Assembly (NCBI GenBank): GCA_001510335.1
Contig: LFFB01000006.1
Coordinates: 1 to 32,648, forward strand
Direction of reading: 5' to 3'
Length of the DNA: 32,648 nt
Source of the DNA: Actinobacteria bacterium casp-actino2
GTDB taxonomy: Bacteria; Actinomycetota; Acidimicrobiia; Acidimicrobiales; Ilumatobacteraceae
Program-made: the position numbers and the translations under genes
The notes under the pieces: model-generated
The model's input: only the letters and a program-made list of their open reading frames with translations
What the model was told of the DNA's origin: nothing
Database searches by the model: none
Shown: piece by piece, positions 18,898 to 30,977 of the stretch
How the letters are laid out: every line of letters begins with the position of its first letter
Position numbering within the stretch: the first letter of the stretch is position 1

Positions 18898-19977
18898 ATG
18901 AAAGCCCTCATTTTGGCTGGTGGCGCTGGCACCCGATTGCGACCCATCACCCACACCAGTGCCAAGCAGTTGGTTCCGGTTGCCAACAAGCCAATTTTGT
19001 TTTACGGCATTGAAGCCATGGTCTCGGCCGGTATCACCGAAATCGGTGTGATCGTTGGTGACACCCGAGTCGAAGTGATGGGCGCACTGGGTGACGGAAG
19101 TCAATGGGGCGCCAAGATCACCTTTATTCCTCAAGATGAACCATTGGGTCTTGCGCACTGCGTATTGATCGCAGCCGACTTCTTGGGTGATGACGACTTT
19201 GTGATGTACCTCGGAGACAACTTGCTCGAACAAGATCTCGGAGCTTTTGTACACGCTTTTGAGTCAGCGCGTCTCAGCAGTGAGCCGCCGACTGCGCAGA
19301 TTCTTTTGAAGAAAGTTCCGGATCCACATCGTTTCGGTATTGCCGAACTCGATGCCGCCGGAAATGTGATTCGTTTGGTTGAAAAGCCAGAAAATCCACC
19401 CACCGACCTTGCCCTAGTTGGTGTGTATTTATTTGATCGCACGATCAACGATGCTGTGCGCGCCATTGCGCCGTCGCCACGAGGTGAGCTCGAAATTACT
19501 GACGCGATTCAGTGGTTGGTTGACCAAGGCAAGATCGTTCGCCAAGAATTGCTGACCGGTTGGTGGATCGACACTGGCAAATTGACGCCATTGCTTGAAG
19601 CCAATCGTCTGTTGCTTGAAGTGATTGAGCCGCGAGTTGACGGAGATGTTGATGAAGCATCGTCACTCGATGGACGCGTTGTGATTGAGGAAGGCGCAGT
19701 TATTCGCAACTCAACTCTGCGCGGACCACTGGTGATTGGCAAGGATGCGCGGATCACGGACAGTTTCATCGGACCGTTCACAGCAATTGGTAACGGTTGT
19801 GAAGTGGTGAACAGTGAAGTTGAACACTCGGTCATCATGGAACGTAGTCGCATCATTGACATCACGCGCCTTGAAGACAGTTTGATCGGACGCGAAGCTG
19901 AAGTGATTCGTTCGCAAAAACGTCCACGCGCTTTGCGCTTAATGATTGGCGATCATTGCCAAATTGATACGGAGTAA
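18898..19977 (+). CDS. rmlA: Glucose-1-phosphate thymidylyltransferase, long type
   Basis: The first rhamnose-pathway enzyme joins dTTP and glucose-1-phosphate to give dTDP-glucose. The nucleotide-binding motif is LAGGAGTRLRPITHTSAKQL (6-25, K23 included), with YLGDNLL for metal binding and VEKPENPP for the sugar site. At 359 residues it belongs to the long class: residues from about 245 form a left-handed beta-helix (GRVVIEEGAVIRNSTLRGPLVIGKDARI). Long forms occur in actinobacterial rhamnose and deoxysugar clusters. It heads rmlA-rmlC-rmlB-rmlD. Confidence 0.93.
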   Translation: MKALILAGGAGTRLRPITHTSAKQLVPVANKPILFYGIEAMVSAGITEIGVIVGDTRVEVMGALGDGSQWGAKITFIPQDEPLGLAHCVLIAADFLGDDDFVMYLGDNLLEQDLGAFVHAFESARLSSEPPTAQILLKKVPDPHRFGIAELDAAGNVIRLVEKPENPPTDLALVGVYLFDRTINDAVRAIAPSPRGELEITDAIQWLVDQGKIVRQELLTGWWIDTGKLTPLLEANRLLLEVIEPRVDGDVDEASSLDGRVVIEEGAVIRNSTLRGPLVIGKDARITDSFIGPFTAIGNGCEVVNSEVEHSVIMERSRIIDITRLEDSLIGREAEVIRSQKRPRALRLMIGDHCQIDTE

Positions 19978-19981
19978 ACAC

Positions 19982-20533
19982 ATGCCAAAAGTGACAGCTA
20001 GCGACAAGATTGATGGCGTTTGGATCGTTGAACCAACAATTCACGGTGACCAGCGCGGACTATTCATCGAGACATACCGCCGCGAGTGGTTTCCGAACGG
20101 CCGTGAAATGATTCAGGGCAACCGTTCAAATAAACAAGCCGGTGCGTTAGTTGGATTGCACTATCACATGCATCAATCTGATTATTGGTATACGCCAGTC
20201 GGCACGATTCGCGTGGTTTTACATGACCTGCGCGAAGGTGGTCCCACCGACGGCGCCACGCAGACATTAGAAATTAGTGGTGAAAATCATGTGGGCGTTT
20301 ACATTCCGCCCGGGGTTGCTCACGGATTCTCGGCACTCACCGATGTCGTGATGACGTATCTCGTTGACGGTTATTACAACCCAGCCGACGAACTTGGAGT
20401 CGCCTGGAACGATCCGGTGATTGGCGCCGATTGGGGAGTCGCTGACCCGATCATGAGCGAACGAGACCGTACGAATCCGATGCGTGCCGACTTGCCTGTA
20501 GGACGCCGCCCCTACTGGCCCATGAGGACTTGA
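19982..20533 (+). CDS. rmlC: dTDP-4-dehydrorhamnose 3,5-epimerase
   Basis: A 183-residue cupin-fold epimerase, third in the dTDP-rhamnose route. The catalytic region is LVGLHYHMHQSDYWY (56-70, with H60 as the likely base), and the conserved HGDQRGLFIETY (21-32), VVLHDLREG and VYIPPGVAHGFSAL segments are present. The ATG at 19982 is preferred to one at 19946 because it has GGAG 7 nt upstream and does not overlap rmlA. The stop is 1 nt before the rmlB start. Its GLHYHMHQ differs slightly from the common RGLHYQ motif, so a related 3- or 5-epimerase cannot be excluded, but the operon makes RmlC most likely. Confidence 0.88.
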   Translation: MPKVTASDKIDGVWIVEPTIHGDQRGLFIETYRREWFPNGREMIQGNRSNKQAGALVGLHYHMHQSDYWYTPVGTIRVVLHDLREGGPTDGATQTLEISGENHVGVYIPPGVAHGFSALTDVVMTYLVDGYYNPADELGVAWNDPVIGADWGVADPIMSERDRTNPMRADLPVGRRPYWPMRT

Positions 20534-20534
20534 A

Positions 20535-21500
20535 ATGAAACTGTTTGTAACTGGAGCCGCCGGATTTATTGGTTCAAACTATGTGCGTTGGCTGTTGGCA
20601 AATAGTGACGACACCGTCACTATTTACGACAAGCTCACGTACGCCGGCAACATGGAAAGCATCAATGACCTCATTGATGACAAGCGTTGCAAGTTTGTGC
20701 AAGGCGATATTTGTGATGCCGATGCAGTTCTGGCGGCGATGAAGGGTCACGAAGGTGTCGTGCACTTTGCTGCCGAAAGCCATGTTGATCGCTCCATTGT
20801 TGACCCATACGCGTTTGTGCGCACGAACGCTTATGGAACCAACGTGATGTGCGATGTCGCCCGCCAAGTTGAAGTGCAGCGCTTTTTGCACATTTCAACC
20901 GACGAGGTGTACGGGAGTATCGATGAAGGTTCATTTTCTGAAACCGATATTTTGTGCCCACGTTCGCCGTATTCGGCCTCGAAAGCATCAAGTGATTTGA
21001 TTGCATTGTCCTACGTGACGACCCACGGATTGCCAGTAGTGGTGACTCGTTGCTCAAACAACTTTGGCCCATACCAGTTTCCTGAAAAGTTGATTCCGTT
21101 GTTCACCACTAACTTGCTTGATGGCAAGAAAGTTCCGTTGTACGGCGATGGTGGCAACGTGCGCGACTGGATTCATGTCGAGGACCACAACATTGCTGCT
21201 CATCTAGTGCTGCAAAAAGGCGAAGTTGGTCAGGTGTACAACATCGGTGCGCATAACGAAATCACGAATCGCGACATCACCTATCGCTTGCTCGAGTTGT
21301 GTGGACGTGATGAAAGTTCAATCACGCCAGTTGCCGACCGACTTGGACATGATCGTCGTTACTCGGTGTACATTGACAAGGTGTCAGCGCTCGGTTGGAA
21401 ACTCAGCCGCACGTTTGAAGACTCGCTCGCCGAAACTGTCGAGTGGTATCGCAACAACCGTGCCTGGTGGGAACCGCTTAAAGCCCGCGCTGGTCTGTGA
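20535..21500 (+). CDS. rmlB: dTDP-glucose 4,6-dehydratase
   Basis: A 321-residue extended SDR converting dTDP-glucose to dTDP-4-keto-6-deoxyglucose. NAD binding is shown by TGAAGFIGSN (6-15). The dehydratase-specific T122-D123-E124 in HISTDEVYG and the YxxxK pair (Y146, K150) in SPYSASKASSD are intact, as is RCSNNFGPYQFPEKLIP for substrate binding. A GAGGA Shine-Dalgarno sequence lies 6 nt before the ATG, inside the end of rmlC, so translation is probably coupled. Confidence 0.95.
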   Translation: MKLFVTGAAGFIGSNYVRWLLANSDDTVTIYDKLTYAGNMESINDLIDDKRCKFVQGDICDADAVLAAMKGHEGVVHFAAESHVDRSIVDPYAFVRTNAYGTNVMCDVARQVEVQRFLHISTDEVYGSIDEGSFSETDILCPRSPYSASKASSDLIALSYVTTHGLPVVVTRCSNNFGPYQFPEKLIPLFTTNLLDGKKVPLYGDGGNVRDWIHVEDHNIAAHLVLQKGEVGQVYNIGAHNEITNRDITYRLLELCGRDESSITPVADRLGHDRRYSVYIDKVSALGWKLSRTFEDSLAETVEWYRNNRAWWEPLKARAGL

Positions 21501-21513
21501 TTAACTCGTAATT

Positions 21514-22362
21514 ATGAAAATTCTCGTTACTGGAGCTAATGGTCAACTCGGTCAAGACTTGATGCGAGTGATTACTGCCGCTGGTGACGAAGCAGTCGGA
21601 ATCGATATCGACACCGTTGACATCACCAGTCGTGAGGCCGTTCACGAAGCACTAGCAACGATTTATCCAGACGCAGTCATTAACTGCGCTGCATTCACGG
21701 CGGTTGATGCGTGTGAAGACAATGCCGATACCGCAATGTTGGTCAACGGAACCGCAGTGCGTTGGGTGACCGAGGCCAGTGATGCAGTTGGCGCACACCT
21801 GGTGCATATCAGTACTGACTATGTTTTCGACGGTACAAAAATCGGGCCGTATGTTGAAACCGACACTCCCAATCCGCAAAGTGTGTATGGCCGAACCAAG
21901 TTGGCGGGCGAACACGAGGCACTGGTCAATGGATCGGGTGTTGCAGTCGTTCGAACATCGTGGGTGTGTGGTTTTTATGGCAACAACATGGTCAAGACGG
22001 TGCACAAGTTGGCGAAAGAACGTGATTCGTTGTCGTTTGTGAGCGACCAGATTGGCCATCCCACGTTTACATCTGATCTTGCGCCGTTGTTGCATCGTCT
22101 TGCTGTTGATCGCCGTGACGGAATTTTCCACGGAACGAATCAGGGTGCGGTGAGTTGGTACGAATTCGTAAAAGAGATTGTGCGTCTGATGGGTAAAGAT
22201 CCGGGCATGGTGCATCCGATCACCACTGCCGAGTTGCAGCCGCCGCGTCCGGCGCAACGTCCGGCGAACAGTGTGCTTGATAACAAAGCATTGCGTGATG
22301 CTGGTTACGCGCCAACTCGCGATTTCCGTGAGCCATTGGCCGAATTATTGCGACTTCTCTAA
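21514..22362 (+). CDS. rmlD: dTDP-4-dehydrorhamnose reductase
   Basis: A 282-residue SDR that makes dTDP-L-rhamnose, the last pathway step. It has the N-terminal TGANGQLGQDL (6-16), INCAAFTAVDACE (56-68), STDYVFDG (100-107) and the Y125/K129 pair in SVYGRTKLAGE. It follows rmlB by 13 bp and closes the operon. A compact hairpin and the second copy of the 45-bp element follow the stop. Confidence 0.95.
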   Translation: MKILVTGANGQLGQDLMRVITAAGDEAVGIDIDTVDITSREAVHEALATIYPDAVINCAAFTAVDACEDNADTAMLVNGTAVRWVTEASDAVGAHLVHISTDYVFDGTKIGPYVETDTPNPQSVYGRTKLAGEHEALVNGSGVAVVRTSWVCGFYGNNMVKTVHKLAKERDSLSFVSDQIGHPTFTSDLAPLLHRLAVDRRDGIFHGTNQGAVSWYEFVKEIVRLMGKDPGMVHPITTAELQPPRPAQRPANSVLDNKALRDAGYAPTRDFREPLAELLRLL

Positions 22363-24884: not shown

Positions 24885-26126
24885 TTACTTCTTGAGGTCT
24901 TTGAAAGCACTCTTGCTGTCGATGCCCGGATCTTTGGGCATACCTAAAACTCGTTCGGCAACGATGTTGCGCATGACTTCGTCAGAGCCACCGGCGATGC
25001 GACCGCCAGGTGTACCAAGAATCAATTGATTCCAGGCATACGTGCCCCATTCGCCACTGTCGGCAATGAGTTTTGGTCCGAGCACCATTGAAACGAAATC
25101 GCCGAGACGCATCATGTTGGCAGTGCCTGCCAGTTTGGCCATGCTCATTTCGGGTCCGGGCATTTGGCCCGACTTGATCTTGTCCATCGCTCGTTGGTTG
25201 TTGTAACCCGCGACTTTGTTGTGAATGATGATCTTGGCGAGTTCATCACGTACGACGGGATCTTTGTCGAGTTCATAAAACTTGACCATCTCGATAACGC
25301 GCGTGAAAAATCCTCCGCCTCCACCACCGGCACCGATTGCGGCACGCTCGTTCATGAGGGTTGTGAGTGCCACATTCCAGCCATTGTTGACATCGCCGAG
25401 TCGATGATCGTCACGAACACGAACTTCGGTGAAGAACACTTCATTGAAACTTGCTCCACCAGTCATCTGGCGCAACGGGCGAATTTCTACACCTGGCGCA
25501 TGCATGTCAACAATGAAGCCAGTGAGTCCTTTGTGCTTGGGCATATCGAAATCGGTACGAGCAATGATTTCGCCGATGTCGCTGTAGTGCGCTCCACTCG
25601 TCCACACTTTTTGACCAGTGATGATCCATTCGTCGCCATCGCGTTCGGCTTTTGTGCTCAAGTTTGCGAGGTCACTACCAGCACCTGGTTCACTGAACAA
25701 CTGACATCCAACGATGTCGCCTCGATACATCTTGTGAACATATAGGTCACGAGCGATATCTGAACCATGGTCAATGATGGTGGGGGCCACCATGCCGAGT
25801 CCGATGGTGAAGCAACTCTGGCTCGGGATTTCGTACTTTGATTCAAGTGCGTCATAAGCCCGTGAGTAGGCAACGGGTAAGCCGCGGCCACCGAATTGTT
25901 TTGGGCCAAAGATGTAACCAAAGCCTGCGTCAAACTTCTTGCGGCGCCACGCGCACGCTTCAGCGACATCGAGCTTTTCTGACTGGCGATCCTTTTCTTC
26001 GAACATCGTGACCTTGTCGGCCCCCTCGCCCCAGACGAATTTCTTTTCAGCCTCTTTGCGTGGGGCATTGGCCTCTAAAAATTCGAGGGCATCAGCCTGG
26101 AATTGCTCGAGAGTGGGTTGAGACAT
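24885..26126 (-). CDS. Acyl-CoA dehydrogenase
   Basis: A 413-residue FAD flavoenzyme of the acyl-CoA dehydrogenase family, which oxidises acyl-CoA thioesters to 2-enoyl-CoA. The flavin-contact motif is CQLFSEPGAGSDLANLSTKAERDGDEWIITGQKVWTSGAHYSDIGEIIART. The C-terminal IAGGSDEVMRNIVAERVLGMPKD is the usual ending of actinobacterial FadE proteins. The substrate cannot be read from the sequence; actinobacteria have many FadE paralogues acting on fatty acids, sterols or branched acyl chains. The ATG at 26126 has an AGGAG Shine-Dalgarno sequence 9 nt upstream, so unlike its neighbours it is translated from a leadered transcript. Confidence 0.92.
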   Translation of the reverse strand: MSQPTLEQFQADALEFLEANAPRKEAEKKFVWGEGADKVTMFEEKDRQSEKLDVAEACAWRRKKFDAGFGYIFGPKQFGGRGLPVAYSRAYDALESKYEIPSQSCFTIGLGMVAPTIIDHGSDIARDLYVHKMYRGDIVGCQLFSEPGAGSDLANLSTKAERDGDEWIITGQKVWTSGAHYSDIGEIIARTDFDMPKHKGLTGFIVDMHAPGVEIRPLRQMTGGASFNEVFFTEVRVRDDHRLGDVNNGWNVALTTLMNERAAIGAGGGGGGFFTRVIEMVKFYELDKDPVVRDELAKIIIHNKVAGYNNQRAMDKIKSGQMPGPEMSMAKLAGTANMMRLGDFVSMVLGPKLIADSGEWGTYAWNQLILGTPGGRIAGGSDEVMRNIVAERVLGMPKDPGIDSKSAFKDLKK

Positions 26127-26202
26127 GTTCTGGTGCTCCTGTGTGACAAGTGAAATGGTTGACGAAAATAGAGACAGTGCTGTGACCGTACCGCCTCCGA
26201 AC

Positions 26203-26208
26203 TAAGGT
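26203..26208 (+). promoter_or_regulatory. -10 element of a leaderless promoter for the Nfu-N-like gene
   Basis: TAAGGT, 6 nt (TGCCAT), then the ATG at 26215. No Shine-Dalgarno sequence is present. Confidence 0.5.
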
Positions 26209-26214
26209 TGCCAT

Positions 26215-26670
26215 ATGGGTCAGCCTGTTGTCGTCGTTGAAAAGCAAAGTCGTCGCCCCGGAGTTGTCTGGTTTGAGGCCAATCGCAGTTTGTCGGGGAT
26301 GGGTCACGAGAGTTTCTTGTCATCCGACACCAATGCGCACGCTGTTTCGTCAATCACCCCGTCGGCTGAATTAGCCCGTCGCCTCTTTTCCACCGGTCGT
26401 GTGACTGGTGTTCACGTGTATCAAAACATGATCACTGTCGATCTCGCAAAGGGTTTTGACTCTGAGGGTTTGCAGGACATTGTGCGCGATTTGTATCAAT
26501 ATTGGAAGCCAGGCATGGTTCCGCCAGCATTTGAAGGCTTGGTGGCCGCTGAAGAAGCGCCGGCCGTAAGTAGTGCGCCTTCTGAAGGTGGAGCAGTGAT
26601 TGACAGCCGTGTGCCAGCCCATCTGATTGAACGCAGCCGAGCGGCTCGCGCCCGGTTAACAGGCCAGTAA
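26215..26670 (+). CDS. Small conserved-type protein with an Nfu N-terminal-like region
   Basis: A 151-residue cytosolic protein. Residues about 20-80 (EANRSLSGMGHESFLSSDTNAHAVSSITPSAELARRLFSTGRVTGVHVYQNMITVDLAKG) resemble the Nfu/NifU N-terminal scaffold domain, with a pLa..LF...V..V...nfItV pattern. The Cys-containing Fe-S domain of true Nfu proteins is absent, and the protein has no Cys at all. The C-terminal third is Ala/Glu/Ser-rich and then basic (LIERSRAARARLTGQ). The family assignment comes from pattern reading and needs a profile search. It has its own leaderless-type promoter. Confidence 0.55.
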   Translation: MGQPVVVVEKQSRRPGVVWFEANRSLSGMGHESFLSSDTNAHAVSSITPSAELARRLFSTGRVTGVHVYQNMITVDLAKGFDSEGLQDIVRDLYQYWKPGMVPPAFEGLVAAEEAPAVSSAPSEGGAVIDSRVPAHLIERSRAARARLTGQ

Positions 26671-26745
26671 CAGGTCGTGAATCAGTCCTGAATAGGGCCA
26701 GAAGTCCTTTTGGTGGGCGACTTATTTGTCATCGCACAATCTCTC

Positions 26746-26763
26746 ATGCACTGGGGGGTGCAT
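26746..26763. promoter_or_regulatory. Inverted repeat beside the -10 of the B12-binding regulator (candidate operator)
   Basis: ATGCAC-TGGGGG-GTGCAT is a perfect 6-bp inverted repeat. It ends 1 bp before the TAGCCT -10 hexamer (26765-26770), where a bound repressor would block RNA polymerase. Autoregulation is inferred from position. Confidence 0.5.
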
Positions 26764-26764
26764 T

Positions 26765-26770
26765 TAGCCT
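26765..26770 (+). promoter_or_regulatory. -10 element of a leaderless promoter for the B12-binding regulator
   Basis: TAGCCT, 6 nt (TTGCCT), then GTG at 26777. This spacing favours the GTG over the in-frame TTG at 26771, which would sit directly against the -10 hexamer. Confidence 0.55.
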
Positions 26771-26776
26771 TTGCCT

Positions 26777-27622
26777 GTGGAGACAAATGTACTGACGCTT
26801 GACGAGGTTAAAGAGGTCCTCGGCGTGAGTTACATGACGGTCTACCGCTACGTGAAGAGCCGCCGTTTAGAGGGTTACCAGGTTGGCGGAGTGTGGCACG
26901 TGTCGCAAGAAGCGCTGCGGCAGTTCCAAGAAGAAAAGAATCAGCCCAAGAAACGCACGTCCACCTCGGGCGATGCGCGTCGCACGACGAACTACGCCGA
27001 AGAACTTGAACGTTGTTTGACCGCCGGAGATTCAAGCGGATCATTAGAGGTGGTCAAGCGAGCCGTTGATGCCGGCGCTGATGTCGAGCGGGTGTACCTC
27101 GAAGTTCTGTCTCCGGCCATGGCGTCAATTGGTGCATCGTGGGCGGCTGGCGAAATTGATATTGCGATTGAGCATCAGGCCAGCGCGATTGTGACTCGTT
27201 TGGTCGGTCAACTGAGTCCACGTCCACGTGGTCGTCGACGTGGCCAGGTGTTGATTGGTGGCCCAACTGGCGAGCGCCACGCATTGGCTTTGGCGATGTT
27301 AGCTGACCTGTTGCGTCTGCAGGGATGGGAAGTACTCGACTTGGGCGGGGATACCCCGGCTGCATCGTTCGTTCATACCGCTAGCAAAATGACCGACTTA
27401 GTGGCCGTGGGCGTGAGTCTGACATCAGTTGAGTCTGAAGCTTCAGCGGCGGCCACCTTGACCTCTTTGCGGGCGGCAATTGGCCCCGATGTGCCGGTGG
27501 TCTTAGGCGGAGGTGCGATTCGGGACGAGAAGCACGCTCGTGACCTGGGGGCCGACCATTTCGCGATGGGCGCTCGGGGTTTCATCGAGTTCCTCGATCA
27601 GCGCAAGAAAAAATCCGCCTGA
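26777..27622 (+). CDS. Cobalamin-binding transcriptional regulator with CarH/LitR-type sensor and excisionase-type HTH
   Basis: A 281-residue protein. Residues 5-52 (LTLDEVKEVLGVSYMTVYRYVKSRRLEGYQVGGVWHVSQEALRQF) form an HTH_17/excisionase-type DNA-binding domain. A basic linker follows (QPKKRTSTSGDARR). Residues about 70-145 match the helical-bundle cap of B12 sensors and contain W122...E132-H133, the Wx9EH motif of adenosylcobalamin photoreceptors of the CarH/LitR class. Residues 155-275 form a B12-binding Rossmann domain; E166-R167-H168 supplies the usual lower-ligand ExH, although the Gly three residues after the His is Ala. Known CarH proteins carry a MerR-type domain and repress carotenoid genes in the dark. 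Target genes here are unknown; the next gene is SOS-controlled imuA, 34 bp downstream. Confidence 0.85.
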   Translation: METNVLTLDEVKEVLGVSYMTVYRYVKSRRLEGYQVGGVWHVSQEALRQFQEEKNQPKKRTSTSGDARRTTNYAEELERCLTAGDSSGSLEVVKRAVDAGADVERVYLEVLSPAMASIGASWAAGEIDIAIEHQASAIVTRLVGQLSPRPRGRRRGQVLIGGPTGERHALALAMLADLLRLQGWEVLDLGGDTPAASFVHTASKMTDLVAVGVSLTSVESEASAAATLTSLRAAIGPDVPVVLGGGAIRDEKHARDLGADHFAMGARGFIEFLDQRKKKSA

Positions 27623-27627
27623 AACTT

Positions 27628-27649
27628 ACGAACACCTGTTCGCTAGAGT
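27628..27649 (+). promoter_or_regulatory. LexA (SOS) box and -10 element of imuA
   Basis: GAAC-ACCT-GTTC (27630-27641) matches the actinobacterial LexA box. TAGAGT (27644-27649), 7 nt before the ATG at 27657, is the likely -10. The string TACGAAC-N4-GTTCGCTAG is identical to that before dnaE2 outside the 4-nt centre. Confidence 0.82.
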
Positions 27650-27656
27650 CGGAGGC

Positions 27657-28433
27657 ATGTCGTCGGTTCGTGTCTCATCTCTCTCACCATCGCTGTCGGG
27701 TCCCCTGTCTGAAATGACGCTGTCTGAAATGACGCTGGCGCGCGAGCGCTTATTGCCTGTTCATCAAACTCTCGCTCCACTTTTTGGGCTGAACGCTGAC
27801 GACCCCACTCCATTGGCATTGACTCGTGGGCACACCGTGGCGTGTGTGGGCTCGGCGGCAATGTCGTGTGCTTTGGCGGTTTTGGTAGCCCCGACCCGAG
27901 CGGGTTCGTGGGCCGGTGTTGTGGGTTTGCCGAGTTGTGGAGTGCAAGCCGCTGCTGATTTAGGTGTTGCACTTGAGCGAACGGTTTTTGTTGCCGACCC
28001 AACGGGGGGTTCGCGAACCTCTGGACAACAAGGCGATGCAGCAGCGGCGTTATCGGCTCTGGTTGACGGAGTTGATGTGCTGTTACTCGGGCAACGCGTT
28101 GTGAGTTCATTATCGACATCGTTATTGCGCCGTTTGCAAACTCGAGTGCAATCGCGCGGCGGTGTTTTGGTTATTGTGAGTGAAGCAAAGTCTTTGGTGA
28201 GTTCATTGTCGGCTGATGTGCGACTTACTGCGACAACTCAACAATGGCAAGGTGTTGATTTGGGTTACGGTCATCTGCAACGACGTCAAGTGTTGTTGCA
28301 ACTTGATGGTCGCCGAAGGGCTCGCACAACTGAACAACAGGTGTGGTTGCCCGATCATCAGGGGCAATTGAGTCCGGTTGAAAAAGCAGCAGAAAACACG
28401 GGCGTGGTTATTCCGTTACGTCACGTTGGTTAA
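27657..28433 (+). CDS. imuA: ImuA-like mutasome protein
   Basis: A 258-residue protein recognised mainly by context and general features: a divergent RecA-like fold lacking a good Walker A motif (LTRGHTVACVGSAAMSCALAVLVAP), a hydrophobic strand DGVDVLLLGQ in the Walker B position, and direct linkage to imuB, 3 bp downstream. In actinobacteria the second mutasome protein (ImuA' or ImuA-type) helps recruit DnaE2 and ImuB for translesion synthesis. A longer frame from 27513 overlaps the preceding gene; the ATG at 27657 is right because the LexA box and -10 lie just upstream. A 15-bp tandem duplication gives LSEMTLSEMTL near the N-terminus. Confidence 0.75.
   Translation: MSSVRVSSLSPSLSGPLSEMTLSEMTLARERLLPVHQTLAPLFGLNADDPTPLALTRGHTVACVGSAAMSCALAVLVAPTRAGSWAGVVGLPSCGVQAAADLGVALERTVFVADPTGGSRTSGQQGDAAAALSALVDGVDVLLLGQRVVSSLSTSLLRRLQTRVQSRGGVLVIVSEAKSLVSSLSADVRLTATTQQWQGVDLGYGHLQRRQVLLQLDGRRRARTTEQQVWLPDHQGQLSPVEKAAENTGVVIPLRHVG
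27705..27734 (+). repeat. 15-bp tandem duplication in imuA
   Basis: Two identical in-frame copies (27705-27719 and 27720-27734) encode LSEMT twice within the N-terminal region of ImuA. Confidence 0.9.
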
Positions 28434-28436
28434 TCG

Positions 28437-30113
28437 ATGGCCGCCATTCAGCCACCGCGTTGCGCGGTTCTGCACACTCCAGCGTGGCCAATTGCTGCAG
28501 CAATCTTGCATGAGCCCGAAACTTTTCACGTCGCGCAACCACTTGCGGTTTTTCACGCACAACGAGTTTTGTCATGTTCACCTTTGGCTTGGCGTGAAGG
28601 AGTTCGTCCCGGGCAGCGACGACGGCAAGCACAAGGTGCATGTCCGCATTTAGTCATCGTCCCGTTTAACGCTGATCGTGATGCGCGTATGTACGAACCG
28701 CTCGTGCAATCGATAGGAACTCTGGTTCCACTGATTGATGTTGAAAATCCAGGGTCATTGTTGTTGGCCACACGCGGGCCATCGCGTTACGTCGGCGGCG
28801 ACGATGCTTTGGCAGTGCGCCTACTTACATTGGCGAGCGAAGGTTTGTCTCATGCCAACCAGGGTCTGAATGTTGATGAGGTCATCGCAGCAGGCGGAGG
28901 TTTGGGCGTTGGTATTGCCGATGGTCGTATCGCTGCAACATTGGTCGCGCGTTCATCATCACGTCGAGGTGAACCAGTAGTTATTCAGCCTGGACACGAA
29001 GCAACTGCAACATTCTTGGCGCCGTATGCGGTGAAAGTTTTAACTGCAGTTGCCGGATGTTCGCCAGACTTAGTTGATCTTTTGGAACGACTTGGTTTGC
29101 GACAACTTGGTGATATCGCACGCTTGTCGGTGACCGATTTAGTCGGACGATTTGGTGCGATTGGTGAAACTCTCCATCGCTTGGCAAGTGGCACTGATGA
29201 CACCCCGCCGTCAACGATTCCGCCGCCACCTGATCTAACAATGTCTCGAGTCTTTGATGATCCGTTGTTGCAACTTGACATGTTGGTCTTTGCGGCCAAA
29301 GCACTCACCGATGAATTAGGTGCCTACTTCCACGAACGTGGACAAGTGTGTACGCGCGTGCAAGTTGAAGCCGAGAGTGAACACGGTGAAAGTTCGCAAC
29401 GCGTGTGGTATCGGGCCGAAGGAATGCGTTCGGCCACATTGCTTGATCGCGTGCGTTGGCAACTTGATGGTTGGATCAACGGCACCGAACCACCAACCGC
29501 TGGTGTCACTTTGTTGCGGGTCACCCCGATTGATATTCGTTCTGATGCGGGCACACAAGTTGGTTTTTGGGGTGGTCGATCAGAAGCCGATGACAATGCA
29601 ACACGGGCGATTACGCGGGTCATTGGTTTGCTAGGACCACAGAGCGTCACAGTTGCGTCGTGGCGGGGTGGACGCGACCCGCGTGAGGTGTACGAGATGG
29701 TGTGTTTCGCTGATATTGGCAGTGCCGATTCTGGAGGTGTCGGGCAGCAACTTGTTTTGCGCCCTGATGATGATGCTGACGCCGCAGAATGGCCTGGTTC
29801 GTTACCTGCACCTGCACCAGCAGTTGTGCATCACGACCCATTACTTGTTGAAGTAACCGATGTCCATGGTCGGGTGGTGGCTGTGAATGGACGCGGACTG
29901 GTGAGTGCTACGCCAACAACTTTGTTGCAACATGGTCAGTCGTATCGCATTGTGGCGTGGGCCGGGCCGTGGCCAGTCGATGAGCGTTGGTGGGATCAAC
30001 GCGCTCGTCGGGCTGCCCGATTCCAGTTGGTCATCGAACAGCCCGACGGGCAGTGTGCGTATCTTGCTGAAGTAGCGGCCGGTCAATGGTGGCTGACCGC
30101 CGAGTATGCCTAA
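28437..30113 (+). CDS. imuB: ImuB, catalytically inactive Y-family polymerase homologue
   Basis: A 558-residue Y-family-like protein that in the ImuA/ImuB/DnaE2 mutasome acts as a hub binding the beta clamp and DnaE2. The polymerase fold is recognisable (GLGVGIADGRIAATLVAR, the helix-hairpin-helix region LLERLGLRQLGDIARLSVTDLVGRFG, and a little-finger part with GGRSEADDNATRAITRVIGLLG). The catalytic acidic residues are missing: the N-terminal position reads VLHTPAWPIAAAI and the SxDE position lacks the acidic pair (ENPGSLLLATRG). This fits ImuB and excludes an active DinB. The C-terminus is long (DVHGRVVAVNGRGLVS...WWLTAEYA), as in ImuB proteins. Its stop directly abuts the convergent response regulator stop. 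Confidence 0.88.
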   Translation: MAAIQPPRCAVLHTPAWPIAAAILHEPETFHVAQPLAVFHAQRVLSCSPLAWREGVRPGQRRRQAQGACPHLVIVPFNADRDARMYEPLVQSIGTLVPLIDVENPGSLLLATRGPSRYVGGDDALAVRLLTLASEGLSHANQGLNVDEVIAAGGGLGVGIADGRIAATLVARSSSRRGEPVVIQPGHEATATFLAPYAVKVLTAVAGCSPDLVDLLERLGLRQLGDIARLSVTDLVGRFGAIGETLHRLASGTDDTPPSTIPPPPDLTMSRVFDDPLLQLDMLVFAAKALTDELGAYFHERGQVCTRVQVEAESEHGESSQRVWYRAEGMRSATLLDRVRWQLDGWINGTEPPTAGVTLLRVTPIDIRSDAGTQVGFWGGRSEADDNATRAITRVIGLLGPQSVTVASWRGGRDPREVYEMVCFADIGSADSGGVGQQLVLRPDDDADAAEWPGSLPAPAPAVVHHDPLLVEVTDVHGRVVAVNGRGLVSATPTTLLQHGQSYRIVAWAGPWPVDERWWDQRARRAARFQLVIEQPDGQCAYLAEVAAGQWWLTAEYA

Positions 30114-30977
30114 TCAGGAATTGCTTGAGGCAGTTTGAGATTCGAGTGAACGTGACGACGCAAGATCATGCTTCGCTAGTTGCAAAAGGTCATCAGCGAG
30201 ACGGAAACCGATGCCACGTACCGTGTGCAAGAAACGTAACTCTGGTGCTCGCTCGGTCAATTTGCGACGCAAGTTTGATAAGTGAACGTCAACAACATGA
30301 GTGTCGCCGACCCAGTGCGGGCCCCAAACACTTTCGAGCAATTCAACACGGCTGCACACTTCAAGTGGGCGCAAACACAATTGTGAGAACAGATCGAACT
30401 CAAGGCGAGTTGCGGCGATGGGGTAGCGGTTGACGCGAATTTCGCGCCGGCCAAGGTCAATATCAAGCGGACCGAAATACAGATTCTTGGGTTGACCATC
30501 ACTGACAATTGCGTGAGCAAACTGACGTGAGCGACGCATCAATGCTTGGCACCGTACGGCAACTTCATCGGGGGAAACTTCGATGGGTAAAGCGTGGTCG
30601 GCGCCATTACGCAGCACGGTGATGCGTTGGTCATCAGAGTTGGCGCCAACAACGATGATGTAGATCTCGGGGCAACGGCGTACCTGAGTCATGAGATTGT
30701 TGGGAAGCGGGTAAGCATCGCGAGCGTCAACCACGATCAGGTCGGGGGCAAATGAGCGAAGCATGACTTCGGCGGCCGTGTGATCGTTGGTTGAGCGCAC
30801 GACATAGCCAATGCGCTGCAGGGCGGCTTCGACCGAACGACGGTCTGAGTTGTGGATCAAAGTCACCAAAGCTCGAGGGGTTGATTCGCCCTCGGGGTGT
30901 TGTTCAACACCGCCGGCCACGGTAGGACGGAGTCGTGATTCGGTTGATCCGGGGAAGTGGGTCTCTATAAGTGTCAT
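30114..30977 (-). CDS. OmpR/PhoB-family response regulator with degenerate receiver
   Basis: A 287-residue regulator with an N-terminal extension of about 34 residues, a receiver domain (about 35-150) and an OmpR-type winged helix (about 165-262: LDIDLGRREIRVNRYPIAATRLEFDLFSQLCLRPLEVCSRVELLESVWG...VDVHLSNLRRKL...HTVRGIGFRL). D84 in LIVVDARD fits the phosphoacceptor. The acidic pair after beta1 is replaced (LIHNSD), the switch Thr/Ser is G111 in VVGAN, and the Lys is lost (ALPIEV). Phosphorylation in the standard way is therefore doubtful. No histidine kinase is adjacent. An inverted repeat (31004-31024) lies upstream. It converges with imuB with no bases between the stop codons. Confidence 0.9.
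   Translation of the reverse strand: MTLIETHFPGSTESRLRPTVAGGVEQHPEGESTPRALVTLIHNSDRRSVEAALQRIGYVVRSTNDHTAAEVMLRSFAPDLIVVDARDAYPLPNNLMTQVRRCPEIYIIVVGANSDDQRITVLRNGADHALPIEVSPDEVAVRCQALMRRSRQFAHAIVSDGQPKNLYFGPLDIDLGRREIRVNRYPIAATRLEFDLFSQLCLRPLEVCSRVELLESVWGPHWVGDTHVVDVHLSNLRRKLTERAPELRFLHTVRGIGFRLADDLLQLAKHDLASSRSLESQTASSNS

Follow-up and report, generated by a model that had tools for sequence, protein, structure and literature searches.

A predicted cobalamin-based light sensor encoded upstream of the SOS mutasome genes in Ilumatobacteraceae

The whole 32,648-base contig LFFB01000006.1 of Actinobacteria bacterium casp-actino2, a freshwater-type member of the Ilumatobacteraceae, is called the window below; the genome to which it belongs is 1.57 Mb and 68% complete. 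One end of the contig carries, in this order, selD, an RNase HII gene, an acyl-CoA dehydrogenase gene (minus strand), a gene for an Nfu_N-like protein, a regulator gene, imuA', imuB, an OmpR-type regulator gene (minus strand) and a Cys/Met enzyme gene. The regulator joins a helix-turn-helix (HTH) domain to a cobalamin-binding unit and is probably a B12-based light sensor and DNA-binding regulator. Its gene and domains are as follows.

26777..27622, plus strand: HTH-cobalamin-binding-domain regulator, predicted adenosylcobalamin (AdoCbl) photoreceptor; 281 aa, open frame with a GTG start and a stop codon ending at 27622
26789..26938, plus strand: HTH_17 domain, residues 5-54 (Pfam 7.7e-11, above gathering score); BldC/Xis/MerR-like winged helix in the model
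26996..27214, plus strand: B12-binding_2 four-helix bundle, residues 74-146 (Pfam 9.9e-15, above gathering score); GxxW at 119-122, E132-H133
27248..27568, plus strand: B12-binding Rossmann domain, residues 158-264 (Pfam 7.4e-12, above gathering score); GERH at 165-168, GGDTP at 190-194

The regulator and its cobalamin-binding unit

The original prediction, made from the letters of the window, had read W122 and E132-H133 as a Wx9EH motif followed by a B12-binding domain with ExH. Both elements are present: exactly nine residues separate W122 from E132, as in CarH and class I LitR, and the ExH is E166-x-H168 within the Pfam B12-binding match. The accompanying claim that Wx9EH by itself defines AdoCbl photoreceptors was too narrow, since the signature of light-responsive cobalamin domains validated by others has four elements, GxxW, EH, GxxH and GxxxP (excerpts of PMC11796333). 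The window protein holds all four, as G119-x2-W122, E132-H133, G165-x2-H168 and G190-x3-P194. When 90 relatives were aligned, W122, E132, H133, H168, G190 and P194 proved invariant in 61/61 mutasome-linked rows, which indicates that the motif did not arise by chance. The full signature is found in 58 of these 61 rows, in 7/7 rows linked to Nfu only and in 21/22 of the other rows. Left out before alignment were the window's own gene (L001), a MetH-like gene (L002), duplicate sequences and the truncated gene of L052, and L054 gave no match at the threshold used for the set. Most relatives have a start codon at the position aligned with the GTG, as assigned by a script that chose the start codon nearest that position.

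We also read by eye the B12 motif of CarH and LitR, D/ExHx2(G/P)...SxT/V...GG (excerpts of PMC9304148). E166-x-H168, S214-x-T216 and G244-G245 are present, and Ala171 occupies the G/P position, which holds Pro in 26, Ala in 21, Val in 11, Gly in two and Ser in one of the 61 mutasome rows. The Pfam matches and the four signature elements confirm, in terms of sequence, an HTH domain joined to a complete cobalamin-binding unit that carries the light signature. Homologues matching at 1e-25 or better occur in 31 of 296 genomes sampled across the phylum, the protein's own family included. Two matched regulator stretches (G087:C1:28790-29608 and G131:C207:3-812) have a reported internal stop codon, which may reflect gene decay or a match that overruns the end. 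Three records titled Bifidobacterium breve (L023, L024, L026) show 78-94% protein identity to the Ilumatobacteraceae-type regulator, and their organism names look wrong.

A full-length model was built with AlphaFold2 from 15 sequences (mean pLDDT 84.8) and has a disordered linker at residues 56-70. The profile searches and structure predictions that had been proposed for both domains returned HTH_17, the B12 domains and, as nearest structures, photocobilin, CtMerR and CarH. Searched against solved structures with phmmer, the sequence matched photocobilin 8j2w (2.3e-19), CtMerR 8jbs (9.5e-18) and TtCarH 5c8d (2.2e-11). Foldseek with the model ranked 8j2w first (5.5e-16), then 8jbs (7.9e-15) and full-length TtCarH 5c8e (4.2e-14), and VIA-align over about 200 residues gave Z scores of 25.7 for 8j2w, 22.2 for CtMerR and 21.2 for CarH. 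Two results speak against photoreception: the methionine synthase B12 fragment 1bmt fits the model about as well as CarH (Z 22.6), and NCBIfam TransRegCarH scores 70.9 bits with a cut-off of 400. Because methionine synthase B12 domains fit equally, the fold alone does not show light sensing, and the sorting was done by the signature.

These domain matches raise the question of a methyltransferase corrinoid shuttle protein misread as a photoreceptor, which we regard as highly improbable. Weak NCBIfam matches to MtgC, MtbC and MtaC and the good alignment of methionine synthase and corrinoid-protein domains point towards such a protein. However, every NCBIfam corrinoid model lies far under its cut-off (MtgC 64.9 versus 370 and 39.5 versus 310; others 30.5-47 versus 215-450), the protein has an HTH domain, and no corrinoid methyltransferase was found among the neighbouring open reading frames (ORFs) scanned. 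A non-photoreceptor B12 family, a profile match to which had been named in advance as refuting the photoreceptor assignment, was rejected on these same scores.

The DNA-binding domain had been described as HTH_17/excisionase-type and unlike the MerR winged helix of CarH. The family assignment stands: Pfam returned HTH_17 for this domain, with no MerR family up to E 0.1. A difference in fold is not supported. When modelled alone from its single sequence (pLDDT 82.6), the domain formed a winged helix, and Foldseek placed BldC, Xis, RacA, MtaN and SoxR among its nearest structures with weak E-values (best 0.014) and TM scores of 0.6-0.7. The nearest solved structure was BldC 6ama (E 0.014, TM 0.63-0.72), and phmmer with this domain returned nothing useful (best E 0.11). 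The model resembles the winged helices of the MerR superfamily, in particular those of BldC/Xis type. Its fold is probably not different from that of CarH, the contrast lying at the family level, and a clearly different, non-MerR fold is not borne out.

Gene order around the other homologues provides the best indirect evidence for light sensing by the family. At 9 of the 22 other loci (L049, L098, L099, L100, L102, L103, L107, L108, L109) the divergent neighbour comes from one gene cluster, which is Bac_rhodopsin in L100 (Pfam 2.7e-39), the sole member tested by Pfam, and retinal-synthesis (BCD) and lycopene-cyclase genes lie near some of these loci. A DPRP photolyase-like gene stands beside the homologue in L047 and near the gene in L135, a divergent FAD oxidoreductase beside it in L048 and L101, and a FAD-oxidoreductase/DUF1365/CMAS cluster at L043 and L045 and likewise at L141 and L142 in other families. 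The remaining other loci have unrelated or unidentified neighbours (for example kelch-repeat, glycosyltransferase, primase, FMN dehydrogenase and 2-hydroxyacid dehydrogenase genes), and no B12 gene was found among the neighbours identified at other loci.

L100:6286-8027 and eight like loci hold a sister-clade B12/HTH regulator divergent from the rhodopsin cluster, with 10-bp-periodic TTAG-like repeats upstream, and this protein is a candidate for the light-dependent control of rhodopsin. In other freshwater actinobacteria, RNA-seq found light-dependent photolyase and rhodopsin transcripts, and that paper nowhere uses the words CarH, cobalamin or SOS (PMC8591293). In another family, the B12/HTH gene at L136:4231-6885 is followed by genes for an Fpg-type DNA glycosylase and ferrochelatase, a damage and photosensitiser theme. 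A photolyase domain was present in 9 of 11 genomes searched and was not found in the incomplete window genome.

The same neighbours bear on whether the protein reports B12 supply, with AdoCbl as an ordinary ligand, and not light. Consistent with such a cobalamin-status sensor, the window genome encodes a MetH-like protein that contains pterin-binding as well as B12 domains and has a cobalamin adenosyltransferase family match on contig C10 (found in 7/8 genomes searched); in addition, A123 removes the CarH light-state ligand, as described below. We nevertheless consider this function unlikely, because the full light signature is so widely kept in the mutasome rows and other homologues lie beside rhodopsin, photolyase-like and photo-oxidative genes with no B12 gene identified. 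Moreover, Rfam gave no match over the window at gathering score, and hence no known cobalamin riboswitch.

The residue after the signature Trp differs from that of CarH. In TtCarH, H132 follows W131 and becomes the upper cobalt ligand in the light, and the H132A protein remains mostly tetrameric after light, although a contrary earlier report is cited there (excerpts of PMC10442372). The window protein has A123 at this place, which, taken with the mutant, weighs against light release of the CarH kind. The position holds A in 32, E in 14, S in eight, H in three and other residues in four of the 61 mutasome rows, and His in 12/22 other rows. The window protein could thus be a natural H132A-like variant that binds and photolyses AdoCbl without being dissociated by light, its DNA-bound form being stabilised; the prevalence of A, E or S (54/61 mutasome rows) agrees with this, as does the TtCarH mutant. 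We hold it to be improbable, since CtMerR carries Arg at the H132 place yet monomerises in light, and SasPcob and AbDPcob have Gln and Tyr there (excerpts of PMC11796333). An H132-type ligand is not common to every B12 photoreceptor. Given A123 in place of H132, the light-state chemistry probably differs from that of CarH, although the Arg-bearing CtMerR monomerises.

Linkage to imuA' and imuB across genomes

The genes and the control site that flank the regulator are listed here.

26215..26670, plus strand: Nfu_N-like protein, 151 aa (Pfam 18.8 bits, under the cut-off of 27)
27629..27642, plus strand: LexA (SOS) box CGAACACCTGTTCG, between the regulator gene and imuA'
27657..28433, plus strand: imuA', ATG start, 258 aa; NF058630 matched on the longer ORF 27513-28430
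28437..30113, plus strand: imuB, Y-family polymerase homologue, 558 aa; PF00817 (IMS) exceeds its Pfam cut-off, and none of the NCBIfam models reaches its own

The statement that the next genes are the SOS mutasome proved correct. imuA' is recognised by NCBIfam ImuA' (87.5 bits, cut-off 65) and imuB by Pfam, and CGAACACCTGTTCG, an actinobacterial LexA box, is exact in 58/61 mutasome loci and has one mismatch in the other 3. Stretches drawn at random from these loci contain an exact box in 6%, some of them perhaps the same sites. The regulator and imuA' are 34 bp apart in the window, and a terminator scan of 26100-28500 found no terminator-like site in this gap. Over that same region, sigma-70 promoter and terminator scans gave no excess over shuffles (1 versus a mean of 0.8, and 3 versus 2.9). 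dnaE2 is not in the window; in relatives it follows the Cys/Met gene (L027, L035, L052) or comes soon after imuB (L039).

Most of what is known of B12 photoreceptors concerns the switching of carotenoid genes. As originally noted, no carotenoid cluster adjoins the regulator: none was found among the 29 window ORFs scanned with Pfam, the rest, mostly small or overlapping, being unscanned. The OmpR-type regulator gene beside imuB (30114-30977, minus strand) has a receiver domain at 20.7 versus a Pfam cut-off of 30.2 and, within the genus, remains part of the block. Elsewhere in the window, 18898-22359 holds a dTDP-rhamnose-type gene run (nucleotidyltransferase, 3,5-epimerase, dehydratase and RmlD by Pfam).

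We then surveyed 121 genomes of the family, the window's own among them and the others no less than 80% complete. In these, 73 genes scored over 160 bits, a line between orthologues and lower-scoring homologues that was set after the data had been seen. For 62 of these 73 genes imuB follows in the same orientation at a distance of 677-2263 bases, and 0/17 lower-scoring homologues (E up to 1e-14) have it within 5 kb. The 11 exceptions comprise one genome without an imuB match and ten with imuB elsewhere, including six of genus g10 and two with the regulator at a contig end. In a tree made by a quick method and with some long branches, the mutasome and Nfu-only rows form one 68-row group (SH-aLRT 89), and 17 of the 22 other rows fall in a separate group (SH-aLRT 100). 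Among the loci fetched, linkage outside the family was found only in L040, where two called genes part Nfu from the regulator and imuA'-imuB still follow.

Several observations weaken the case that the regulator acts on the mutasome. Nfu and imuB lie within 6 kb of each other in 28 genomes that have no regulator orthologue (24 of them with the two genes 0.64-0.94 kb apart), compared with 58 genomes that have it, which indicates that the Nfu-imuA'-imuB block is stable by itself and that the regulator is an element inserted into it or lost from it. Nfu is the upstream neighbour of the regulator in 69/70 genomes with both, whereas adjacency to imuB is looser (62/72); in genus g10 the regulator has kept Nfu beside it and imuB lies at another place. 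An opposite-strand called gene intervenes between the regulator and imuA' in 7/61 mutasome rows from two genera (L017, L019, L038, L075, L079, L084, L085), and read-through would stop there; the gap exceeds 250 bases in 3 further mutasome rows. Finally, the regulator stands beside imuA'-imuB in 0/20 further loci of the order.

The regulator may therefore be a light sensor unrelated to the mutasome, which hitch-hikes in a stable block and regulates itself and perhaps scattered genes. We regard this as a serious possibility, at somewhat less than an even chance. Besides the looser imuB adjacency, the regulator-less blocks and the intervening genes, it is favoured by the LexA box, which stays at regulator-less loci (exact in 12 of 20 read). 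On the other hand, neighbours do drift off. In the window the control neighbour RNase HII lies about 1.9 kb upstream of the regulator, yet a distance of 10 kb or less is kept in only 30/69 genomes (20/58 outside the genus); these counts are lowered by contig ends and concern a gene farther from the regulator than imuA'. The L040 arrangement argues in the same direction.

The original prediction had offered a link between light sensing and DNA damage as tempting. Its recurrence across the whole family makes it more than one accidental neighbour; yet the link is less strong than a first look suggests, since the Nfu-imuA'-imuB block is also found where the regulator is missing. For that reason, and because of the intervening opposite-strand genes, we rate control of the mutasome well below photoreception. 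The Nfu_N-like protein itself (window 26215-26670; L148-L167) is encoded upstream of imuA'-imuB, within 6 kb, in 86 family genomes, with or without the B12 gene, and may belong with the mutasome. In one genus, short GCCGCACGAAG-AAGGCT-like repeats occupy the intergenic region next to the Nfu gene (L149, L163, L083, L088).

The regulator promoter and a model of light control

Upstream of the GTG start we predicted two promoter elements.

26734..26749, plus strand: predicted operator/-35 element; match to the GCACRGTYACGCA motif, score 8.6, 43 bases before the start codon; second repeat half degenerate in the window species
26765..26770, plus strand: putative -10 element TAGCCT, from the column conservation TANNNT, placed for a leaderless transcript from the GTG

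Of 52 non-redundant mutasome-type promoters, 30 have their best GCACRGTYACGCA site at -43 to -45 from the start codon. The site stands 18 bases ahead of a TANNNT, itself positioned as a leaderless transcript would require. The motif has a log-likelihood of 150, compared with 50-59 for three shuffles that preserved base content alone. Scores of at least 7 were obtained at 30/58 mutasome, 3/7 Nfu-only and 0/22 other loci, in 14/1160 shuffles, which kept base content only, and at 0/17 scorable regulator-less block loci (20 read); the score of 7 was chosen after the data had been seen. Self-match in the mutasome promoters was strongest at a lag of 10 bp (z 3.9; next lag 12, z 2.6), and 17 rhodopsin-type promoters, in which TTAG-like units repeat, peaked at lags of 20 and 10 (z 9.3 and 5.4). 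A search for exact GCACRRTCACGCA in 12 genomes found 18 matches, 10 before the regulator gene and 8 inside coding sequence (one in imuB), with 0 in the reversed control. With one mismatch allowed, three genomes gave 19 matches versus 11 in the reversed control; of 15 newly fetched loci, 11 are in genes and 4 outside, none a convincing further target. Since the strong sites lie before the regulator gene, these data point to autoregulation with no other target.

There are also grounds for caution about an operator. Of the 58 mutasome promoters, 28 score below 7, the matrix was trained on mutasome loci, so that the contrasts lean towards that group (this objection carries less weight for the shared position), and the 12 genomes of the exact-pattern search were picked mostly for a strong site. 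No 10-bp periodicity was seen at five loci outside the rhodopsin-type clade (L043-L046, L096; best lag 4, z 1.8), and the motif may be a promoter element instead of an operator.

The domains, light signature, gene-associated promoter motif, LexA box and gene order are seen in the sequence. From them we infer AdoCbl binding, a light response, the direction of regulation, autorepression and read-through, and we consider it slightly better than an even bet that the regulator is an AdoCbl-dependent, light-released autorepressor with possible read-through into imuA'-imuB. In the dark, AdoCbl would lie between the four-helix bundle and the Rossmann domain, with H168 as lower ligand and W122, E132 and H133 at the upper face, and would keep the protein as an oligomer; the cobalamin adenosyltransferase match of the genome fits such a use of AdoCbl. 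The BldC-like winged helices would then sit head-to-tail on the 10-bp direct repeat at the -35 of the gene's own leaderless promoter and repress it. In light, breakage of the Co-C bond would weaken the oligomer, and the promoter would be released. If imuA' comes next, as it does 34 bp away in the window, some transcripts could continue into imuA'-imuB, and the mutasome would then have a basal source that depends on light besides the LexA-controlled promoter. DNA damage would act separately, through the LexA box.

A more far-reaching proposal is that a B12 photoreceptor has been wired into inducible mutagenesis, so that daylight, acting through AdoCbl, raises basal ImuA'-ImuB-DnaE2 ahead of or alongside the LexA response, while a sister lineage controls rhodopsin and retinal synthesis. 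We put this forward as tentative and rather doubtful. If true, the supply of mutations in sunlit Ilumatobacteraceae would follow daylight directly and not only through damage, and one receptor family would set both light-energy capture and the daytime mutation rate. The sister branch offers a possible regulator of the rhodopsin genes of aquatic actinobacteria, and the natural genomes without the regulator, together with the compact two-promoter layout, should make both ideas easy to test.

Comparison with known systems

The HTH-cobalamin photoreceptor architecture is already known (PMC11796333). As far as our searches of papers show, the family-wide SOS mutasome linkage, the rhodopsin-linked sister branch and the candidate operators are apparently new. 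Among the matches listed, no title or abstract opening of an open-licence PMC paper joins a B12 photoreceptor to mutasome or microbial rhodopsin genes, and the abstract openings do not mention a B12-domain regulator upstream of the mutasome.

The window protein resembles CarH and class I LitR of Thermus thermophilus, Bacillus megaterium and Myxococcus in its Wx9EH, and differs from them in having HTH_17 instead of a MerR Pfam family. The scanned window ORFs include no carotenoid gene. CarH operators are tandem 11-bp direct repeats, nnnnTnnACAn, that overlap the -35 (excerpts of PMC9304148), whereas the candidate repeat at the mutasome promoters appears to be 10 bp long and of a different sequence, GCACRGTYACGCA. 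In Pseudomonas, a LitR-linked region holds genes for a photolyase, a FAD oxidoreductase, a short-chain dehydrogenase and UfaM (excerpts of PMC9758184), and the oxidoreductase-DUF1365-CMAS cluster of L043 and L045 resembles it.

CtMerR, from Chloracidobacterium, and the HTH-CBD proteins mined by SignatureFinder share all four signature elements with the window protein. The DNA-binding domain of CtMerR also departs from that of CarH, and it too lacks an H132 equivalent (excerpts of PMC11796333). In the Foldseek alignment, CtMerR and the window protein are about 27% identical over the B12 unit. The photocobilins SasPcob and AbDPcob (excerpts of PMC10979010) are the best sequence and structure matches for this unit. 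They carry a biliverdin-binding domain C-terminal to it (excerpts of PMC11796333), whereas the window protein ends 17 residues past the B12-binding match.

BldC of Streptomyces has a similar winged helix but no sensor domain, to which the window domain is fused. Its head-to-tail binding is to short direct repeats of 9 bp whose core is AT-rich (excerpts of PMC5859096); those predicted for the window gene are 10 bp. The protein thus departs from the stand-alone winged helix on direct repeats that typifies the BldC family. Compared with the ImuA'-ImuB-DnaE2 mutasome, the locus has imuA' and imuB with a LexA box, and dnaE2 lies farther along in relatives.
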